A stretch of DNA of 64,000 nt from the NCBI RefSeq assembly GCF_001262495.1, contig NZ_LGYE01000006.1, positions 1 through 64,000 on the forward strand, written 5' to 3'. Each line of letters opens with the position of its first letter. Within the stretch, counting starts at the first letter, position 1. This document shows, piece after piece, positions 18,294 through 40,445 of the stretch. Origin of the DNA: Microbacterium sp. GCS4 (lineage in GTDB: Bacteria > Actinomycetota > Actinomycetes > Actinomycetales > Microbacteriaceae). The translations under genes and the position numbers were made by a program. The notes below the pieces were generated by a model. It ran no database searches and was not told the DNA's origin. It saw only the letters and a program-made list of their open reading frames with translations.

Positions 18294-19703
18294 ATGAACG
18301 ATTCCTCCCAGAGCGGCGAGGCACCCGAGCCCGCCGCGACGGCGAACAGCGGCGCTGTCGGCGTCATCGGCCTCGATCTGCGCGGCGATGAGCCGGCGCC
18401 CAAGAAGCAGGTCTTCTCGTGGGCGCTCTGGGATTGGGCCACGCAGCCTTTCAACACCGTGATCCTCACGTTCATCTTCACGGCGCTGTACCTGACGACC
18501 GAGGCGTTCCTGCCTGCCGACATCGCGGCGCTCGGTGAGGACGACCCGATCCGCAAGGCCGCCGAAGCCGATCTCGCGTCGGGGCTCGGGCTCGGATCGA
18601 CCATCGCCGGCATCGCCATCCTGCTCATCGCCCCGGTGCTGGGTCAGCGAGCGGATGCCGCGGGGCGTCAGAAGCTCTGGCTCGGGATCGGCACAGGCGC
18701 ACTGATCGCGTGCATGTTCGGCCTGTGGTTCGTGGAGCCGACGCCGGCCCTGTTCTGGCTCGGTGTCGCCCTGATCTCGGCGGGATCGGTGTTCGGCGAG
18801 ATCGCGGCGGTGAACTCGAACGCCATGCTGATCGGCATCGCCACCCCGAAGACCGTGGGTCGCATCTCGGGGCTCGGCTGGGGTTTCGGCTACATCGGCG
18901 GCATCCTCGCCCTCGTGCTCGTGGTCGTGTTCTACATGCTCGACTGGTTCGGTCTGCCGGACGACGGCGGGCTGCCGTTCCGGATCATCGCGGTGGGCTG
19001 CGCGATCTGGGCGATCGTCTTCTCGATCCCGATCTTCCTCAACGTCCCCGAGCCGTCGATGGGCCGCCCCGAACGCAAGGTCGGCTTCTTCGCCTCGTAC
19101 GCGCTGCTCGTGAAGGACGTCATCGGGCTGTACCGCGACCCCGAGACGCGCAACACGTTCTGGTTCCTGCTGTCGAGCGCGGTGTTCCGCGACGGGCTGG
19201 GCGGCGTCTTCGCGTTCGGTGCGATCATCGCCGGGCAGGTGTTCGGGTTCGAGTTCCTGGAGCTCGTGATCTTCGGCATCGCCGCGAACCTCATCGCGGG
19301 CGTCTCGACCATCATCGCGGGGCGGTTCGACGACAGGTACGGCCCCAAGCGCATCATCCTCGTCTCGCTCGCGTCGATGGTGATCGCCGGGCTGGCGGTG
19401 TTCTTCCTCGTGGATGCCGGGACGGTGGTGTTCTGGATCGGCGGCCTGATCCTCTGCGCGTTCGTCGGTCCGGCGCAGGCGGCTGCACGGTCGTTCCTCG
19501 CCCGGGTGACCCCGGCGGGCCGCGAGGGTGAGATCTTCGGCCTGTACGCCACGACGGGGCGGGCGGCGAGCTGGATGTCGTCGGGCGCGTGGACGCTGCT
19601 GATCGTGCTGACCGGGGCGACCGCGTTCGGCATCGTCGGCATCGTGATCGTGCTCGTCGCCGGGTTCCTCCTGCTGCTGCCCGTCAAGGCGACTGCACGC
19701 TGA
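18294..19703 (+). CDS. MFS transporter of the UMF1/Atg22-like family
   Basis: 469 residues with about 12 membrane segments. The N-terminus KKQVFSWALWDWATQPFNTVI has the W-ALYDWANS-like signature of UMF1 (vacuole effluxer Atg22-like) proteins, and the first loop has a long insert before helix 2. In fungi Atg22 exports amino acids from vacuoles; bacterial substrates are unknown. It stands 48 bases after the Lrp regulator and 39 bases before the CDF transporter on the same strand. Confidence 0.82.
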   Translation: MNDSSQSGEAPEPAATANSGAVGVIGLDLRGDEPAPKKQVFSWALWDWATQPFNTVILTFIFTALYLTTEAFLPADIAALGEDDPIRKAAEADLASGLGLGSTIAGIAILLIAPVLGQRADAAGRQKLWLGIGTGALIACMFGLWFVEPTPALFWLGVALISAGSVFGEIAAVNSNAMLIGIATPKTVGRISGLGWGFGYIGGILALVLVVVFYMLDWFGLPDDGGLPFRIIAVGCAIWAIVFSIPIFLNVPEPSMGRPERKVGFFASYALLVKDVIGLYRDPETRNTFWFLLSSAVFRDGLGGVFAFGAIIAGQVFGFEFLELVIFGIAANLIAGVSTIIAGRFDDRYGPKRIILVSLASMVIAGLAVFFLVDAGTVVFWIGGLILCAFVGPAQAAARSFLARVTPAGREGEIFGLYATTGRAASWMSSGAWTLLIVLTGATAFGIVGIVIVLVAGFLLLLPVKATAR

Positions 19704-19742
19704 GGCGCGCCGCCCCGCCGCGGACGGGAGTAGCCTGACCGC

Positions 19743-20678
19743 GTGACTGTCATCATCGCGTTCCTCGCCAACGTCCTCGTGGCGATCGCGAAGACGGTCG
19801 CGGCCGTGCTGACGTCGTCGGCGTCGATGGTCGCGGAGGCCGCGCACTCCTGGGCGGATGCGGGCAACGAGATCTTCCTGCTGATCGCCGACCGCCGTGG
19901 CGCGAAGGCCAAGGACGACCGGCATCCGCTCGGCTATGGTCGCGCGGCGTTCGTGTGGTCGCTGATCGCCGCGTTCGGGATCTTCACGGCGGGTTCGATC
20001 GTGTCGATCATGCACGGCGTGCAGGAGCTCGCCGAGACCGGGCCGGTGGAGAGCCCGGGCATCGCCTACACGGTGCTCGGCATCGCGTTCGTGCTGGAGG
20101 GCGCGTCGTTCACTCAGGCGCTCGTGCGCTCCCGGCGGCTGGCGCGCGAGCGCGGGTCGTCGACCTGGGACTACGTGCTCGGCACGAGCGACACGACCCT
20201 GCGGGCGGTGTTCTTCGAGGACATGGCCGCGCTGATCGGGCTCGTGCTCGCCGGCGGCGCGATCGTCCTGCATCAGATCACGGGCGTCGCGGCCTGGGAT
20301 GCCGTGGGGTCGATCCTCGTCGGCATCCTGCTCGGGGTCGTCGCGGTCATCCTGATCGGACGCAACATCGCTTTCCTGGTCGGAACGAACGCGACGCCCG
20401 AGCTGCGGAACCGCGTGGGCCGCGCACTGCTCACGTCTCCGCAGGTGCAGCGCGTCACGTACCTGCACATCGAGTATGTCGGGCCCAACCGCCTGTTCCT
20501 CGTGGCGGAGGTGGATCTGACCGGCGACGCGCGGGAGCACGATGTCGCGAGCCGGCTGCGGGAGATCGAACGGCAGATCGAGGCGCATCCGGTCGTCGAG
20601 ACGGTCGTGCTGTCGCTGTCGGTCGACGACGAGGCATCGCTCGATTTCGGCGAGGATGCGACTGCCGCGACGGTGTGA
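19743..20678 (+). CDS. Cation diffusion facilitator (CDF) family transporter
   Basis: 311 residues, GTG start. Six membrane segments occur in the first 200 residues. The first metal-binding region is SMVAEAAHSWADAGNE (helix 2) followed by DDRHPLGYGRAAFVW. Helix 5 has an EDMAALIGLVLAGGA pattern in the place of the HxxxD site, so the second half-site is altered. The C-terminal cytoplasmic ferredoxin-like domain ends LSLSVDDEASLDFG. CDF proteins export divalent metals such as Zn or Mn against protons. Confidence 0.87.
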   Translation: MTVIIAFLANVLVAIAKTVAAVLTSSASMVAEAAHSWADAGNEIFLLIADRRGAKAKDDRHPLGYGRAAFVWSLIAAFGIFTAGSIVSIMHGVQELAETGPVESPGIAYTVLGIAFVLEGASFTQALVRSRRLARERGSSTWDYVLGTSDTTLRAVFFEDMAALIGLVLAGGAIVLHQITGVAAWDAVGSILVGILLGVVAVILIGRNIAFLVGTNATPELRNRVGRALLTSPQVQRVTYLHIEYVGPNRLFLVAEVDLTGDAREHDVASRLREIERQIEAHPVVETVVLSLSVDDEASLDFGEDATAATV

Positions 20679-20695
20679 GTCGCAGGGATGACACG

Positions 20696-22417
20696 TCATC
20701 CGACGCCGATGCTCGGTGCTCGGTCGATGACCAGCTCGTGCTCGCGCTCGCGCCTCGCGGCGGGACCGGCGAGTGCGTACTCGATGTCGCGCGAAGGCTT
20801 CGGCCGTCCCCCGCGTTGCGGGCGTGGTCGATGCCGGACAGGCGCTGTTCGGCCGGTCGTCCTCGCGTCTCGGTCGCTGAGCCGCGGTGTTCTCCAGAGC
20901 TGCTCGGGATCCCACCAGGCCGGCCCTCGCACCTGCGGCACGCCGGAGTCCATGCGGATCTCCCACCCCGATCCGTCGAGCGAGCGGTGATGCCACCAGC
21001 ACAGGGGCACCCCGTTGTCGGTGTCGGTCGGCCCGCCTCGCGAGTGTTCGGTGACGTGATGGATCTCGCACCACCCGGCCGGCACGTGGCATCCCGGGAT
21101 GAGGCACTCCTTGTCCCGGGCCACGATCGCTCGACGCTGGTGCACGGTGAACACGCGGCCCATGCTGCTGATCCCGACGATGCGCCCTCCGTCGAACACG
21201 ACGCGTTGGATCGTGCCGGAGCAGCCTGTCTGCGCCGCGACCCGTGCGGGCACCTGTGCATGCGAGTGTCCGTGCGCCCCCGGGAGTGATGCCGCTCCGG
21301 ATCCGCGCTCGAGATCCGCGACGTCCATCGTGACGACGAGGGTCGGCGCCGCGCCACCGAGCGTCGGCATGTCCTTGTGGCGTGCGGCGATGGCAAGGGC
21401 CGCCGCGAACGCGTCGTGCCGCTTCTGCAGCGGCGTGCGGCCGTCGATCACGTTACGCGGATCGGTATTGAACGGGTCTGCGGCCCCACCAGGATCTGCG
21501 CCCTCACCAGCGCCCGCGCCAGGATCAGCGTCAGCGTCAGCGCCCGCGCCAGCGCCAGCGCCCGCGCCAGCGCCCGCGCCAGGATCAGCGTCAGCGTCAG
21601 CGTCAGCGTCAGCGTCAAGGAACGCCACCCGTGGCTTCGCCGGCCCCTCGCCCGCCGGGTTGTTGATCGCGTCGAGGACGGTCTCGAGCTGCGCCGCCAC
21701 TTCGGGCGACAGCCACCCGCGGATCGGCCGCAGTCCGTCGCGCAGACGACCGATCGTGAGCCCGCGCCGGTGCTGTGCGTTCGCATCGTCGGGCTCTGCG
21801 CCGTCGGGATCGAGCACCGCGACGAGCGCATGCGCGAGGATTCCCAGGTCGTCGGTCGTCGGGATCGGCGCATCAGCCCCACTGTCACGATCCGCGTCGA
21901 CGCCCTTTCCGGCATCCGCGCTTCCATACCCACCGCGTGCGGCGTCGGCGAGGCACTGATCGGCGCTCGCTCGCTCATCGGGGGTCAGGCGGTCTCGGCA
22001 TCTCTCGACCGGAGTCGTCGCCGCGAGCATGCCGGCGACGCTCACTCTGCCGTCGAGCATAGCTTCGCGGAGTTCGGGCCAACGCGCGGGAAGCCGCTCA
22101 CCGGAGAGCAGGTTGACGTCGCGGCGCACGAGATCGACGACTTTGCCGATCCGGGCGGCACCTGCAGCATCCGTCGACAGCGTGCGTTGCAGCAGCTCGC
22201 TCGTGGACCGACACCCGGCACCGTGCGAGAGGTCGACGGCGTCGCCCGTCGCGACGGTCTCGACGATCATGGCCTCGAGGCGCCGCAGCGCGGCACCCGC
22301 CGTCGCCAGGATCTCCAGCCGTTCGTCCGATGACACCCCGGCCAGGGTGTCGTCGCCCAGCATCGCGTCGAGATCGTGGACGACCTGAGCGAGACGAGAG
22401 CAGGAACCGGTGGGCAT
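20696..22417 (-). CDS. DUF222 / HNH endonuclease domain protein with expanded Asp-Ala/Gly-Ala linker
   Basis: 573 residues. The N-terminal DUF222 helical domain (about 1-270) is followed by a low-complexity linker of DADADAD and GAGAGAG runs (about 265-315). A C-terminal HNH nuclease core has CLIPGCHVPAGWCEIHHVTEHSRGGPTDTDNGVPLCWWHH, with both CxxC-like zinc pairs. Such genes are abundant, multicopy and variable in Microbacteriaceae and are related to 13E12 repeat proteins of mycobacteria. Function in vivo is unknown. The linker is made of direct DNA repeats. The start MPTGSCS is the best family fit but has only a weak ribosome-binding site. Confidence 0.83.
   Translation of the reverse strand: MPTGSCSRLAQVVHDLDAMLGDDTLAGVSSDERLEILATAGAALRRLEAMIVETVATGDAVDLSHGAGCRSTSELLQRTLSTDAAGAARIGKVVDLVRRDVNLLSGERLPARWPELREAMLDGRVSVAGMLAATTPVERCRDRLTPDERASADQCLADAARGGYGSADAGKGVDADRDSGADAPIPTTDDLGILAHALVAVLDPDGAEPDDANAQHRRGLTIGRLRDGLRPIRGWLSPEVAAQLETVLDAINNPAGEGPAKPRVAFLDADADADADADPGAGAGAGAGAGAGADADADPGAGAGEGADPGGAADPFNTDPRNVIDGRTPLQKRHDAFAAALAIAARHKDMPTLGGAAPTLVVTMDVADLERGSGAASLPGAHGHSHAQVPARVAAQTGCSGTIQRVVFDGGRIVGISSMGRVFTVHQRRAIVARDKECLIPGCHVPAGWCEIHHVTEHSRGGPTDTDNGVPLCWWHHRSLDGSGWEIRMDSGVPQVRGPAWWDPEQLWRTPRLSDRDARTTGRTAPVRHRPRPQRGGRPKPSRDIEYALAGPAARREREHELVIDRAPSIGVG
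21511..21617. repeat. Low-complexity tandem repeat coding the linker of the HNH protein
   Basis: A 30-bp block starting cgcccgcgccaggatcagcg occurs at 21511-21540 and again, exactly, at 21571-21600. The bases between and after are hexamer repeats (agcgtc, gcgccc). It encodes alternating Asp-Ala and Gly-Ala stretches in frame, so copy number can vary without breaking the gene. Confidence 0.85.
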
Positions 22418-22526
22418 GCCCCCATCCCAGCAGGAGCCACCGACATTCGCACCGGCTTGAGCGCCGATTTTTCCCAGCTCAGAGAGATATTCCGGAACAG
22501 CACGCTCCCGATCGAACTCTCGCCGC

Positions 22527-23081
22527 TCAGGACTCCCAGTTGTCGGCGAGCTTGCCGAGAAGGCGGGCGAGTTCGACCCGCTCCTCGTCGGTGAACGCGG
22601 CGAGCGCCTTGCCCAGCGCCTCGCGTCGCTCGCCACGCACACCGCGCACCAGCGATCGCCCCTCGTCGGTCAGCGCGATCCGGGTGCGGCGCGCGTCGTC
22701 GGGATCGGCCTCTCGGCGCAGCCATCCGTGCGCGACCCCCTGCTGGACCAGGCGCGAGGCACGGGGCTGGTCCACGCCGATCGCGGAGCCGAGATCGCTC
22801 ACGCTGAGCGGGACGGATGCCGCGGCGAGCGCCTCGAGCATCCGCATCCGAGCCGGTCCCCCGAAGCGCCCCGAGGGGTCACCCATCCACGGCGGCATGC
22901 CGGGATGACCGGGCCGACCAGGGTGGGCGTGCTCGAAGTGGTCGGGGTGGGGTCCGCCGTGCCAGCCGTGCGGTCCGCCACGTCCACCAGGGCCGCGTCC
23001 TCGATCGCCGGCTCGACGGCCCCGCAGGCGCGCGAGAGCGCGGGCGATGGCTTCGGCGGGGTCGTTCTCGGAGTCGCTCAC
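22527..23081 (-). CDS. MarR-family regulator with His/Gly-rich N-terminal extension
   Basis: 184 residues. The first 75 residues are extraordinarily rich in Gly, His, Pro and Arg (HGWHGGPHPDHFEHAHPG). The MarR winged helix follows: PARMRMLEALAAASVPLSVSDLGSAIGVDQPRASRLVQQ and the wing READPDDARRTRIALTDEGR. The His cluster suggests metal binding or sensing. The gene is divergent from another winged-helix protein with an even longer His/Gly tail, and the intergenic region is full of ACATGC-type motifs, so the pair is probably co-regulated and autoregulated. Confidence 0.85.
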   Translation of the reverse strand: MSDSENDPAEAIARALARLRGRRAGDRGRGPGGRGGPHGWHGGPHPDHFEHAHPGRPGHPGMPPWMGDPSGRFGGPARMRMLEALAAASVPLSVSDLGSAIGVDQPRASRLVQQGVAHGWLRREADPDDARRTRIALTDEGRSLVRGVRGERREALGKALAAFTDEERVELARLLGKLADNWES

Positions 23082-23187
23082 GCCTCGATTTTACATGCGA
23101 CTTGACATGCATTCGTGACGCATGTCACACTACATGTACATGCACTGTGACAAGCACATGCTCACTGACATCAAAAGGACACCACTT
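23082..23187. promoter_or_regulatory. Divergent control region with repeated ACATGC/GCATGT motifs
   Basis: The 106 bases between the two His-rich regulators are AT-richer than their surroundings. They carry an exact inverted repeat TGACATGC (23103-23110) and GCATGTCA (23120-23127) with 9 bases between, a TACATGTA palindrome (23131-23138), and further ACATGC copies at about 23095, 23137 and 23155. This density fits cooperative binding by a MarR dimer, most simply the product of the adjacent gene. Confidence 0.65.
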
Positions 23188-24042
23188 ATGAACACCTCAG
23201 ACACTCAGAACCCCGAGAACACTCCGAACCACGACCGTCCGTTCGGATACTGGCTCAAGGCGGTCGACCGCCTCATGGCCGCCGAGTTCGCCACCGCCTT
23301 CGACGGCGAGCACGCGAGCCGCCGCGATTGGCGCCTCCTGAACGCCGTTGAGGGCACGAACGCGCCGCGCCGCCCGCTCTCCGCACACAAGCTGCGCGGA
23401 CTCGTCGAGCGCGGATGGATCGTCGCCGACGGCGAGGGCTGGACCCTGACCGACGAGGGGCGTGCCGCCAAGGACCGCCTCGGCGGCATCGTCGACGGCA
23501 TCCGCGCGAAGGTCGCAGACGCCGTCTCACCGGACGACCTCGCCACCACCGTGGCGTCGCTCGAGCAGATCGCGCGCGCCTTCGGCTGGGACGAGGAGAC
23601 CCCTCTCCCCCACAAGCGCACGCACGGTCGCGGCTTCGGACGCCGTCACGGCTTCGGCCCGCGTCATGGCTTCGGAGGCCGCGGGTTCGAAGGCCATGGC
23701 CGCCCGTTCGGCCCCGGATTCGGTCACGACGCTGGACCGGATGCCGAGCACGGCGACTGCGGACACCGCGGCCACCCCGGTCACGACCGCTTCCGCCGCG
23801 GACGCGGCGAGCACCGGTTCGCCGCGCACGAGTCCACCGGCCACGCGCACGGCTCACATCACGAGCACGGCTCAGACCACGCGCACGGCGACATCCCCGG
23901 CGAGCACCGACACGGCGGACGCGGTTTCGGCGGACGCGGCTTCGGCGCACACGGACACCCGGGACACCCTGGGGCCCGCATGGCGCAGCACGCCTTCGAG
24001 CGCGGCTTCGACGCCGGCTACTCCCGCGGGCGCGACGCCTGA
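23188..24042 (+). CDS. Winged-helix (MarR-like) protein with long His/Gly-rich C-terminal tail
   Basis: 284 residues; the start ATG has AAAGGA upstream. The first 120 residues look like a winged-helix domain (RRDWRLLNAVEG, HKLRGLVERGWIVADGEGWTLTDEGRAAKDRL), closest in pattern to MarR-type proteins but missing a clear recognition helix. From about 140 the chain is built of His, Gly, Phe, Arg and Asp repeats (RRHGFGPRHGFGGRGFEGHG, then HAHGSHHEHGSDHAHGD). The tail could bind nickel, zinc or copper, as His-rich metallochaperones do. Function unknown. Divergent from the MarR gene at 22527. Confidence 0.7.
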   Translation: MNTSDTQNPENTPNHDRPFGYWLKAVDRLMAAEFATAFDGEHASRRDWRLLNAVEGTNAPRRPLSAHKLRGLVERGWIVADGEGWTLTDEGRAAKDRLGGIVDGIRAKVADAVSPDDLATTVASLEQIARAFGWDEETPLPHKRTHGRGFGRRHGFGPRHGFGGRGFEGHGRPFGPGFGHDAGPDAEHGDCGHRGHPGHDRFRRGRGEHRFAAHESTGHAHGSHHEHGSDHAHGDIPGEHRHGGRGFGGRGFGAHGHPGHPGARMAQHAFERGFDAGYSRGRDA

Positions 24043-24111
24043 CGGTGCCCATCCGGACGACCCCGCCCCACGGCATCCATCCGGAACGACCCGCCTCACG
24101 GCATCCATCCA

Positions 24112-24139
24112 GAACGCCCCCTCTCCGGAGGGGGCGTTC
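24112..24139. terminator. Bidirectional terminator stem-loop
   Basis: GAACGCCCCCTC (24112-24123) and GAGGGGGCGTTC (24128-24139) form a perfect 12-bp stem with a TCCG loop. It lies between the convergent His-rich protein gene and the TetR gene. Just upstream is a direct repeat containing acggcatccatcc (two copies). Confidence 0.8.
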
Positions 24140-24187
24140 GGCATCCATGACCGGCGCCGGGCGGCACCGGCGACCCCGGCATCCGCC

Positions 24188-24772
24188 CTATCGCAACGCG
24201 GGGAGGATGACCTGGTCGACGAGCTCCGCGACGGCCTCGGGTTCGAGGGCGCGGCGACGCAGGCTCACGCTGCCGAAGGCGGCGGTCGGCACTATCCCCG
24301 CGATGACCGCGATGGGAGCATCGGCCCGGACCTCCCCGCGATCGCGCCACCGTTCGATCACACGCGTGAGCACGGCGACCGGAGGCCCTCCGATGACGCG
24401 GTAGGCGACCTCACGGAGCTCCTCGTCGCGTCCGATCTCACTGAGGATGCTGGCGAGCACGTTCGCAGTGCGCTCGTCCGCCTGGGCGAAATGCAGCGCA
24501 GCCGCGAGCAGATCGCCCCGCAGCGTGCCGGTGTCCGGTGCGTCCGTCGTGACCTGGAGCGCGCGGACCGCCGCGACCACGAGCTCGGCCTTGTTCTCCC
24601 AGCGGCGGTAGATGGCGGATCGTCCGCATCGCGCACGCTGGGCGACCGCCGCGATCGTCGTGCCGGCATAGCCGTTCTCGATCAGCAGCTCGTGCACGGC
24701 GGCGAGGATCGCGGCCTCGACGCCGGGATCGCGCGGACGACCGGCCGTCCTGCTCGCCTGAACCGCTTCCAT
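24188..24772 (-). CDS. TetR/AcrR-family transcriptional repressor
   Basis: 194 residues. The N-terminal helix-turn-helix (about 15-62) reads EAAILAAVHELLIENGYAGTTIAAVAQRARCGRSAIYRRWENKAELV, a standard TetR signature. The C-terminal ligand-binding helical domain is of the TetR_C_11 kind. Divergent from the DUF6069 membrane protein with 91 bases between; a double CGGTACCG palindrome there is the likely operator. The ligand is unknown. Confidence 0.9.
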   Translation of the reverse strand: MEAVQASRTAGRPRDPGVEAAILAAVHELLIENGYAGTTIAAVAQRARCGRSAIYRRWENKAELVVAAVRALQVTTDAPDTGTLRGDLLAAALHFAQADERTANVLASILSEIGRDEELREVAYRVIGGPPVAVLTRVIERWRDRGEVRADAPIAVIAGIVPTAAFGSVSLRRRALEPEAVAELVDQVILPALR

Positions 24773-25295: not shown

Positions 25296-25330
25296 GCCGG
25301 GGCCGGCAGCTGAGGAGGTGCGCCGGTGTC

Positions 25331-25631
25331 GGCCGGCGCGGGCGCAGGAGAAGACGCCGGCGCAGGACATTTCCGGGGGATGCCCCCTACCTCCGCGTCA
25401 TCCCCTACCCCGGCGCGAGGGTGCCGGCCGGCGCGGGCGCAGGAGAAGACGCCGGCGCAGGACATTTCCGGGGGATGCCCCCTACCTCCGCGTCATCCCC
25501 TACCCCGGCGCGAGGGTGCCGGCCGGCGCGGGCGCAGGAGAAGACGCCGGCGCAGGACATTTCCGGGGGATGCCCCCTACCTCCGCGTCATCCCCTACCC
25601 CGGCGTCATCCCCTACCCCGGCGCGAGGAGG
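25331..25631. repeat. Three exact tandem copies of a 95-bp repeat
   Basis: Copies start at 25331, 25426 and 25521 with a period of exactly 95 bases; I see no mismatch between the first two. The third is identical until it nears its end, where a 16-base piece containing tcatcccctacccc is duplicated. Each unit holds the small hairpin GGGGG-atg-CCCCC and two GCCGGCGC blocks. It fills the gap between the convergent DUF6069 gene and the proline-rich membrane protein, and the last codons and stop of the latter lie inside the repeat tail. No gene is supported in 25296-25612. Confidence 0.9.
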
Positions 25632-38903: not shown

Positions 38904-40445
38904 TTACGGCTGCGCTGATGCGGCGACGTCCTCGGCCAAGGCGATGAGCGTTCGGCTACCGACTCCCGTCGACCCCAGTGGGGTGAACCCGTATGGCTTC
39001 GCTCGGTTGATGGCCGGGCCGCAGATGTCCAGGTGTCCCCACCGGGGAACGGCGTCTGCGCGGGAGACGAAGTGCTGCAAGAACAACGCCGCGGTGAGCA
39101 TGCCCCCGGGCCTCTCAGCTTTGTTCGCGATGTCAGCGACCCGCGAGCGGAGACCGTAGCCGAGATCGACGGGCAGCGGCATCCGCCACACGCGTTCGTC
39201 CGCAGCGGTGGCAAGACGGGAGAGGTCACCTGCGAGGTCGTCGTCGTTGGCCATCATTCCGCTGACGCGGTCGCCGAGCGCGATCTGCTGCGCTCCGGTG
39301 AGAGTCGCGATGTCGACGACGATGTCAGGACCCTCGGCCGTGGCTTCGATGATGGCGTCCGCGAGGACCAGGCGTCCTTCTGCGTCTGTATCCCGCACTT
39401 CGACGGTCGTCCCGTCGCGAAGAGTGATGACGTCGCTCGGTCGTTGCGACGTCCCCGACGGGACATTCTCTGCGAGCGCGAGCCAGGCCGTGACACGGAC
39501 AGGCACCTGCAGACGTGCGCAGGCGAGGACGGCGGTCAACACAGCTGCTGCGCCGGACATGTCGAAGTTCATGTAGTCGAGTTCCGACAGTTTCAGGTTG
39601 ATGCCACCGGAGTCGTAAGTGATCCCTTTACCGACGAACGCGAGGTGGCTTCGGGCCGACCCCTGCGGGGTGTAGTCGACGCGGACGAGCGCCGGACCGT
39701 GCTCGCTTCCCTGGCCGACCCCCACCAGGCCACCGAAACCTCCCCCACGCAGGGCCGCCTCGTCCCACACCTTGACATCCAGGCCGTCACGATCCGCGAG
39801 TTCGCCTGCCAGCTTCGCGAACGATGCCGGGTAGAGCAGGTTTGGCGGCAGATCCACGAGAGTGCGGGTCATCCGCGTCGCGCGTGCCGCCTCCACCGCG
39901 GACGTCACCTCTGCGGGGTCGAGGGTCATGCCTCCTGCCAGCACGTCGATCTCAACGGTTCCGCCATCACCGCCCTCGGCCTCGCGGTGAAGTCCCGGGT
40001 AGACGAAGCCTCCGAGCAGGGATCCTTCGATGATGGCGCGCACGTCCGCGGCATCGCTCACCGGGAGGGCGAACGTCACTGCGGCGATTCGAGCGGATGC
40101 GCGGGCCGCGGCCCCCGCTGCTCGACGCAATCTGACGGCACTGGTCGCGGACGGGTCATCGTCGTCCAGTCCGACGAGGACGATGTAGTCATAGGGGCTG
40201 CTCCCGGGTGCGTTGACCACCGAGGCCGTATCCGCCCACGTTGCTGCCAGGACGCCGGCGGAGCGGGTGAGAGAGTCCCGGGTGCGCGCGTCGAGCTGGT
40301 TGCGCGGGTCCAGCGCTTCCGCCTGCCCGTCTGCGACGGTGATGCCGATGACGACCCCTGAGCCTTCCGCGGAAGGCGCGGGACCGTCGACGGTGACAGT
40401 CGGGAGCTCGCCGGCCCGCAAGACGAGATCGATGGGTGAAGACAT
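38904..40445 (-). CDS. pepA: M17 leucyl aminopeptidase
   Basis: 513 residues. The C-terminal catalytic domain has GKGITYDSGGINLK with the metal-binding Lys and Asp, and the signature DTDAEGRLVLADAI (normally NTDAEGRL, here with Asp first). The N-terminal macro-like domain covers about 1-170. It removes N-terminal residues from short peptides in the cytoplasm as a dimetal hexamer. It is third in the M24-EamA-pepA operon, 14 bases after the permease gene. Housekeeping pepA genes are usually elsewhere, so this is probably a dedicated copy. Confidence 0.92.
   Translation of the reverse strand: MSSPIDLVLRAGELPTVTVDGPAPSAEGSGVVIGITVADGQAEALDPRNQLDARTRDSLTRSAGVLAATWADTASVVNAPGSSPYDYIVLVGLDDDDPSATSAVRLRRAAGAAARASARIAAVTFALPVSDAADVRAIIEGSLLGGFVYPGLHREAEGGDGGTVEIDVLAGGMTLDPAEVTSAVEAARATRMTRTLVDLPPNLLYPASFAKLAGELADRDGLDVKVWDEAALRGGGFGGLVGVGQGSEHGPALVRVDYTPQGSARSHLAFVGKGITYDSGGINLKLSELDYMNFDMSGAAAVLTAVLACARLQVPVRVTAWLALAENVPSGTSQRPSDVITLRDGTTVEVRDTDAEGRLVLADAIIEATAEGPDIVVDIATLTGAQQIALGDRVSGMMANDDDLAGDLSRLATAADERVWRMPLPVDLGYGLRSRVADIANKAERPGGMLTAALFLQHFVSRADAVPRWGHLDICGPAINRAKPYGFTPLGSTGVGSRTLIALAEDVAASAQP

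Follow-up and report, generated by a model that had tools for sequence, protein, structure and literature searches.

The window analyzed here is a stretch of 64,000 nucleotides from Microbacterium sp. GCS4 (contig NZ_LGYE01000006.1, positions 1 to 64,000). It contains two divergent genes, hereafter P1 and P2, which face away from each other across a short shared gap (Table 1). P1 encodes a protein of the MarR family, P2 probably a derivative of the same fold, and both proteins carry a long segment rich in His and Gly. The first-pass annotation, made from the sequence alone, had placed the two genes, their strands, their starts, and the gap correctly.

Table 1. Features of the divergent pair (positions in the window)
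Feature	Position	Strand	Remark
P1	22527..23081	-	Predicted MarR-family repressor, 184 aa, GTG start at 23081
P1 recognition-helix segment GVDQPRASR	22752..22778	-	Identical in 28/28 Microbacterium alignment rows
P1 His/Gly-rich linker, residues 21-73	22863..23021	-	Mostly predicted disordered
Shared divergent operator/promoter region, 106 bp	23082..23187	.	Between P1 and P2 starts
O1 ACATGC-GACTTG-ACATGC	23093..23110	.	
O2 GCATGT-CACACT-ACATGT	23120..23137	.	
O3 ACATGC-ACTGTG-ACAAGC	23138..23155	.	Second hexamer imperfect
O4 ACATGC-TCACTG-ACATCA	23156..23173	.	Second hexamer imperfect; not present in some relatives
Likely ribosome-binding site of P2, AAAGGA	23174..23179	+	AAGG in gap consensus
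P2	23188..24042	+	Probably MarR-derived protein, 284 aa, ATG start at 23188
P2 truncated helix-turn-helix, residues 56-74	23353..23409	+	AF2 model, alignments
P2 His/Gly/Phe/Arg-rich tail, residues 138-284 (147 aa)	23599..24039	+	
Cys191, sole Cys of P2	23758..23760	+	
Conserved P2 C-terminal motif AFERGFDAGYSRGRDA	23992..24039	+	

The two proteins of the pair

P1 is recognized by two Pfam models, PF12802 MarR_2 (41 bits, cut-off 27) and PF01047 (28.5 bits, cut-off 24.6), and the Foldseek search with its AF2 model matched MarR structures. In the model, an N-terminal helix is followed by a stretch of low confidence, to about residue 73, and by a full winged helix with two long dimer helices; the complete winged helix-turn-helix sits between the dimer helices, and for residues 81-180, the block means of confidence are 93-97 pLDDT. 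The linker (residues 21-73) contains 13% His and 30% Gly by composition count. The first-pass annotation was right about the winged helix and about the rich sequence attached to it and wrong in placing the latter at the N-terminus: in the alignment and in the AF2 model, the stretch is internal, with a conserved N-terminal helix on one side and the winged helix on the other. Cys is absent from P1 in 28 of 29 rows, including the window P1, which thus has no OhrR-type sensing Cys. An AdcR-type zinc regulator was ruled out, as the NCBIfam AdcR model scores 13.5 bits on P1 versus a cut-off of 175. P1 is probably an ordinary MarR dimer, and it is predicted to bind the repeated units of the gap described below. 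As a side observation, the PadR proteins of the same genome were read in part (one strand per locus), and a Gly-rich N-terminus was present in L230 only.

P2 is more distant from the family. No Pfam MarR model was found among its matches up to E = 1, and the best Pfam match (PF21863, 24.0 bits) is under the cut-off of 27. When the P2 core was compared by profile to solved MarR chains, the best match was 3oop (E 2.1e-8), and the Foldseek search gave a best E of 2.3e-5, with TM-scores by query length of 0.57 and 0.61 for the first two matches. In the AF2 model, two N-terminal helices, the wing, and two C-terminal helices are present, alpha-3 is missing, and the recognition helix is a 5-residue remnant (70-74) after a loop. 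Of the earlier description of P2, the C-terminal rich tail of over 130 residues (147 aa here) stood, and the winged helix turned out to be truncated. On the AF2 model and the alignment, P2 is probably a MarR-derived chain that has lost sequence-specific DNA reading.

The decay of this part of P2 is also evident among relatives. Nine loci (L072-L079 and L081) have a low-complexity insert within the helix-turn-helix, and in two of them (L072 and L076), the halves of P2 are in different frames, either by a real break or by assembly error. The P2 frame is also broken in L182 and L186, and here as well decay and assembly error are both conceivable. No P2 winged helix was found in L024, L070, L071, L080, L082, L120-L123, L185, and L199. 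On the P1 tree, the winged helix is missing in 11 of 93 rows, corresponding to seven changes, of which the starred branches force at least two; the tree is a quick one built on few columns, the states were assigned by hand, and the remaining rows were assumed to bear the winged helix. From L136-L215, its sample includes every second locus as well as L185 and L199, and it also includes seven of the nine insert loci. The features of the tail persist in most of the P2 proteins in which the winged helix varies or is missing. This repeated absence of the winged helix with retention of the tail supports the tail as the part through which P2 works.

Short, tail-less proteins made up of the P2 core (about 140 aa) exist in other genera of the family: they were found in 14 of the 15 regions examined, the remaining one (L101) holding an ordinary MarR. 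No P1 was seen beside the short proteins (L089-L103 except L101, in regions of 2-3 kb). These tail-less proteins are likely the source of P2.

The shared gap and the conservation of the pair

The gap contains six RCATGY hexamers, versus a mean of 0.93 in 1,000 dinucleotide shuffles, and none of 5,000 further shuffles reached six; the at least five ACATGC-type motifs claimed earlier are thus real. The hexamers are arranged as four 18-bp units of the form RCATGY-N6-RCATGY (O1 to O4, Table 1). As RCATGY reads the same on both strands, every unit is palindromic, its two hexamers being spaced 12 bp apart. O2 and O3 together form a 36-bp inverted repeat that is 83% complementary. The promoter and terminator scan of 22400-24300 gave nothing above shuffles, and therefore we claim no promoter positions. 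Shortly past the P2 stop, a G+C-rich inverted repeat was noted by eye (24112-24139); it is absent from the terminator scan, which is based on T runs.

The operator is conserved. Of the 66 gaps compared, those of 65 named loci and that of the window, 51 contain a perfect RCATGYN6RCATGY, versus 0.3% of shuffles. The exact 19-base pattern searched in other genomes, TACATGYNNYTTGACATGY, occurs once in 38 of 99 Microbacterium genomes and never twice, while the reversed-pattern control gave zero in all. Fourteen of these 38 genomes belong to the set of 35 Microbacterium genomes described below, and in all 14 the pattern lies between both genes, as a manual comparison of positions showed; variant operator sites are present in the set's other 15 genomes with the pair.

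The same pattern is rare in the genome of the window, where RCATGYN6RCATGY occurs at three places, two of them in this gap, and the reversed control at 10. The search tolerant to mismatches covered this genome: with up to two mismatches, a related pattern was found at four places (three in the gap) versus three control matches, and near-matches elsewhere are therefore uninformative either way. Two candidate regulon targets were discarded: the third perfect place (C1:159853), which appears to lie inside a coding region that we take to be glutamine-synthetase-like, and the near-match at 39557, which is at control level. A wider regulon is unsupported, the operator search having given no further target. 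The searches of this genome turned up no transporter, enzyme, or metal gene alongside the operator and thus give no clue to a pathway. Being rare and nearly confined to this gap, the operator suggests that the module regulates only itself.

The pair itself is a strictly co-occurring unit in Microbacterium. In 29 of 35 genomes, P2 is accompanied by a strong match to P1 (E at most 2.6e-39), and the other six have no P2 match and weak MarR matches only. In 28 of the 29, the genes are adjacent and divergent, and in G019, they lie on two contigs; G020 has near-identical copies of the pair on two contigs (L029 and L030). We also scanned named genomes, using the best 80 of 368 P1 relatives. Among these 80, 79 were from Microbacterium and one (L211) from an actinomycete MAG, and 78 had a P2 profile match on the opposite strand at the same locus. 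No P2 was found on the opposite strand of locus L195. In L185, the place of P2 is taken by an ORF rich in His, with a Cys close to its end. This short ORF of Microbacterium sp. Marseille-Q6648 ends in RGCRHAHV, has no recognized MarR domain, and is followed by a presumably CbiX-like gene.

Of 199 genomes of the family, 21 gave a P1 match (E 1e-15) and 58 a match to the P2 core (E 1e-6). The regions examined gave 16 loci with a divergent partner, from ten further genera, and two plain MarR proteins; the pairs of L071 and L080 were recognized from ORF reading, and one pair (G313) is divided between contigs. Of 297 genomes of the order, 33 gave a P1 match (E 1e-18), eight of them from another family (f7). 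There, P2 was recognized in four of five regions examined, with position and tail motifs counting for more than the score, which in L120-L123 is weak (between 5e-5 and 3e-3 in E) and is no better than, or close to, that of P1 itself. The printed gaps of L120, L121, and L123 retain the RCATGY pattern. The P2 profile search of locus L124 gave no P2. Nine loci with plain MarR and no adjoining P2 found (L085, L086, and L126-L132) were excluded from the pair counts. Taken with the strict co-occurrence and the conserved operator, which is essentially found only here, these results bear out the earlier suggestion that the genes form a two-part switch with its own operator, and the refuting condition named earlier, a pair not conserved, does not apply.

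The neighboring genes were assessed by tblastn with the window proteins and one CbiX-like protein of L185. The window carries an ATG22-like MFS gene and, after it, a CDF cation-efflux gene (18294-20678), convergent to P1. The convergent ATG22-like gene is present in 19 of 20 long Microbacterium loci and, in other genera, in 4 of 11 anchored loci (13 given). On the same side as P1, the CDF gene is present in 31 of 80 loci with short flanks and in 5 of 20 with long flanks. Downstream of P2, a gene that we take to be CbiX-like was found in 11 of 80 short-flank and 4 of 20 long-flank loci, and beyond P2, a gene that is presumably dcd-like in 16 of 20 long loci. Between the CDF gene and P1, the window has a DUF222/HNH endonuclease gene with a run of Asp-Ala/Gly-Ala repeats (20696-22420), for which only 9 of 80 and none of 20 relatives have a match at the corresponding position. 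An intergenic, directly repeated G+C-rich unit of about 80 bp was also noted by eye at 25320-25560.

The tail of P2 and the tail-less pairs

The tail of P2 (residues 138-284) contains 17% His and 27% Gly by composition count, and His reaches only 0-3.5% in the seven other window proteins counted. In the window tail, HxH is at chance level relative to composition shuffles, and GF/FG is enriched (15 versus 6.4, matched by 0.1% of 2,000 shuffles). Across 81 Microbacterium tails, counted without the last 20 residues of each and ignoring kinship, as in all our tail motif counts, FGP (183 versus 14 shuffled), GF/FG (803 versus 338), and HxH (311 versus 197) were above all 200 shuffles, and HH was depleted (94 versus 198) below all 200.

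Then, we considered the set of 88 unique P2 sequences from Microbacterium (drawn from 65 of 78 P2 loci with a clean start and 27 of 30 earlier P2 rows, and including L182 and L186 with their frame breaks). Exactly one tail Cys is present in 71 of them, none in 15, and two in 2; the 71 are a lower bound and the 15 an upper bound, since the automatic boundary placed some Cys in the core (L012 and L024 included). The C-terminal motif ERGFxxG (ERGFxAG), of which ERGFDAGFxRGR is the longer conserved form, is present in 76 of the 88. HxHxH occurs in 8 of the 88, never together with ERGFxxG; in shuffled tails, it was present in 0.38 sequences on average, with a maximum of three over 500 rounds. Stretches of the HVHVHVH type are present in four of the five g101 loci (L069, L088, L133, and L134, not L135), and stretches of the HIHIHTH or HVHVHVH type occur in two lineages. 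The tail boundary was located in 20 of 29 Microbacterium rows, and in these, the tail contains between 4 and 30% His; the nine rows in which the boundary failed are absent from this range. Beyond Microbacterium, the Cys is patchy: it is not visible in the P2 of L069, L070, L073, and L074, and it is present in that of L120-L123, which belong to another family. The L120 protein has three His in total by eye and keeps the Cys, FGPGFGPG, and ERGF. Such a tail is probably disordered, and it may bind metals or tether P1 and P2 to each other. An artefact of chance or composition is ruled out by the orthologues, the operator statistics, and the conserved Cys and C-terminus of the tail.

Three divergent pairs (L083, L084, and L125) lack the rich segments in both partners. 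They form one branch of the tree, so that they may represent one event, and the source assembly of L125 is 9.4 Mb long with 4% contamination. Their P1 has VDRPRASRLT in place of VDQPRASRLV, and their gaps contain ACAACAGTTG-type sites and no RCATGY. We consider them natural specificity variants of the same module. The joint change of recognition helix and operator supports P1 as the reader of the operator; together with the conservation of the operator and the unchanged recognition helix in Microbacterium, it leads us to infer that P1 represses both genes. The joint absence of the two segments suggests that those of P1 and P2 work together. From the tail-less pairs and the nearly His-free P2 of L120, it also follows that histidine is not essential to the pair.

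A proposed autoregulated module, its alternatives, and known systems

We propose that the pair is an autoregulated module in which P1 would repress both genes and P2 would be the output and, via its tail, the feedback partner, a reading that in our judgment is as apt to be right as wrong. A P1 dimer on the RCATGY-N6-RCATGY units would repress the two divergent genes, and a signal releasing P1 would allow P2 to be made. P2, its DNA-reading part lost, would keep the dimer helices and the long tail. The latter, with its FG/FGP repeats, its His, usually one Cys, and ERGFxAG or HxHxH, would serve as the output, most likely sequestering a soft ligand, either a transition metal or a thiol-reactive compound. 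P2 could then feed back on P1 via the MarR helices common to both or via their similar low-complexity segments. Both kinds of ligand are plausible candidates. The tail-less pairs and the patchy Cys outside Microbacterium count against this reading, as do the chance level of HxH in the window tail, the three His of the L120 protein, and the weak P2 scores of L120-L123. Metal buffering, anti-repression, and a redox Cys can be seen as overlapping versions of the role of the tail, and they are weighed separately below.

The suggestion that the pair senses or stores metal, already made in the first-pass annotation, is possible from the sequence. In its full form, the His linker of P1 would sense Ni, Zn, Co, or Cu and release the DNA, and P2 would be an intracellular chelator like the His-rich nickel-storage proteins. 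We consider this rather unlikely. It is coherent with the abundance of His in both rich segments, with the excess of HxH across the 81 tails, and with the HxHxH and HVHVHVH-type stretches, as well as with the mostly single Cys; HxH is at chance in the window's own tail, however, and the wide range of tail His, the tail-less pairs, and the three His of the L120 protein all speak against it. In its favor, the linker and the tail covary in His fraction (Spearman 0.34, n = 65, p = 0.005, kinship ignored), and CDF and CbiX-like genes flank the pair in some loci; against it, these genes are patchy, and neither was seen with the operator. Finally, P1 scores far below the cut-off of the AdcR model.

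P2 could instead be purely an anti-repressor or co-repressor of P1, acting by heterodimer formation through the MarR helices or by C-terminal docking, like ArmR on MexR, with a bistable autoregulatory switch as the result. As modeled, the dimer helices are kept in both proteins and P2 has no DNA-reading helix, which fits such a role, and the conserved C-terminus of P2 would be a candidate docking element. Against it, HxHxH replaces the C-terminal motif in some lineages, and in L185, no MarR helices are recognized in the ORF at the place of P2. Structural matches of the P2 core include the MexR-ArmR complex (3ech), along with many other MarR structures. We regard this reading as rather unlikely, to the same degree as the metal one.

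According to a third alternative, the pair would be a thiol or redox switch: the single Cys of the P2 tail, when oxidized, mycothiolated, or metal-bound, would set the state of P2, and the rich residues would keep the tail soluble. The number of tails with one Cys is far above the 36% that a Poisson distribution with the same mean expects, P1 is almost always Cys-free, and the Cys is also seen in the P2 of another family. Yet up to 15 of the 88 tails were counted without Cys, none is visible in four loci outside Microbacterium, and the Cys-free P1 of the window has no OhrR-type sensing Cys. Overall, we find this quite improbable.

Equally little credence is given to a closed circuit run by matching disordered segments, in which P2, no longer reading DNA, would gather with P1 via the FG/His/Arg-rich tails, in a condensate-like or metal-bridged state, titrating P1 off or onto the four-unit operator, with metal or redox chemistry at His and Cys setting the threshold.

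In that case, the pair would be a bacterial transcription switch with input and feedback both in low-complexity sequence. If the autoregulated module is real, it would be an example of conserved regulation, with a readily testable operator, where a former transcription factor now serves as a partner with a tail, its DNA-binding part being repeatedly absent. This would make it a clean case for the role of His/Gly/Phe-rich disordered segments on bacterial regulators toward metals, redox, and each other.

The operators of known MarR-family regulators are palindromic sites in divergent promoters. P1 resembles the autorepressors MarR, MexR, SlyA, and Rv2887 in fold, in Pfam match, and in the palindromes of the divergent promoter. 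Unlike in those systems, the divergent partner is a decayed MarR protein and not a pump or an enzyme, both partners bear His/Gly/Phe-rich segments, and there are four operator units with no regulon found past the pair. No title on such a pair was found among those listed in searches of open-licence papers. The AdcR regulators are zinc-sensing members of the family. P1 shares the MarR fold with them, but it is far from their model, and its link to metal is only proposed.

ArmR is a short protein and is not known to be a relative of MarR. That a small partner protein acts on a MarR repressor is a known principle, as described for MexR-ArmR (3ech; PMC3290565). Unlike ArmR, P2 would be a full MarR-derived chain. 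A His-rich tail is present in SlyD. A long His-rich low-complexity segment, as in the P2 tail, is also described for Hpn and Hpn-like (PMC8704837, PMC3856676). P2 is likened to Hpn, Hpn-like, and SlyD by its composition, and it differs from them in having a MarR-derived core, FG repeats, and a putative repressor of its own.
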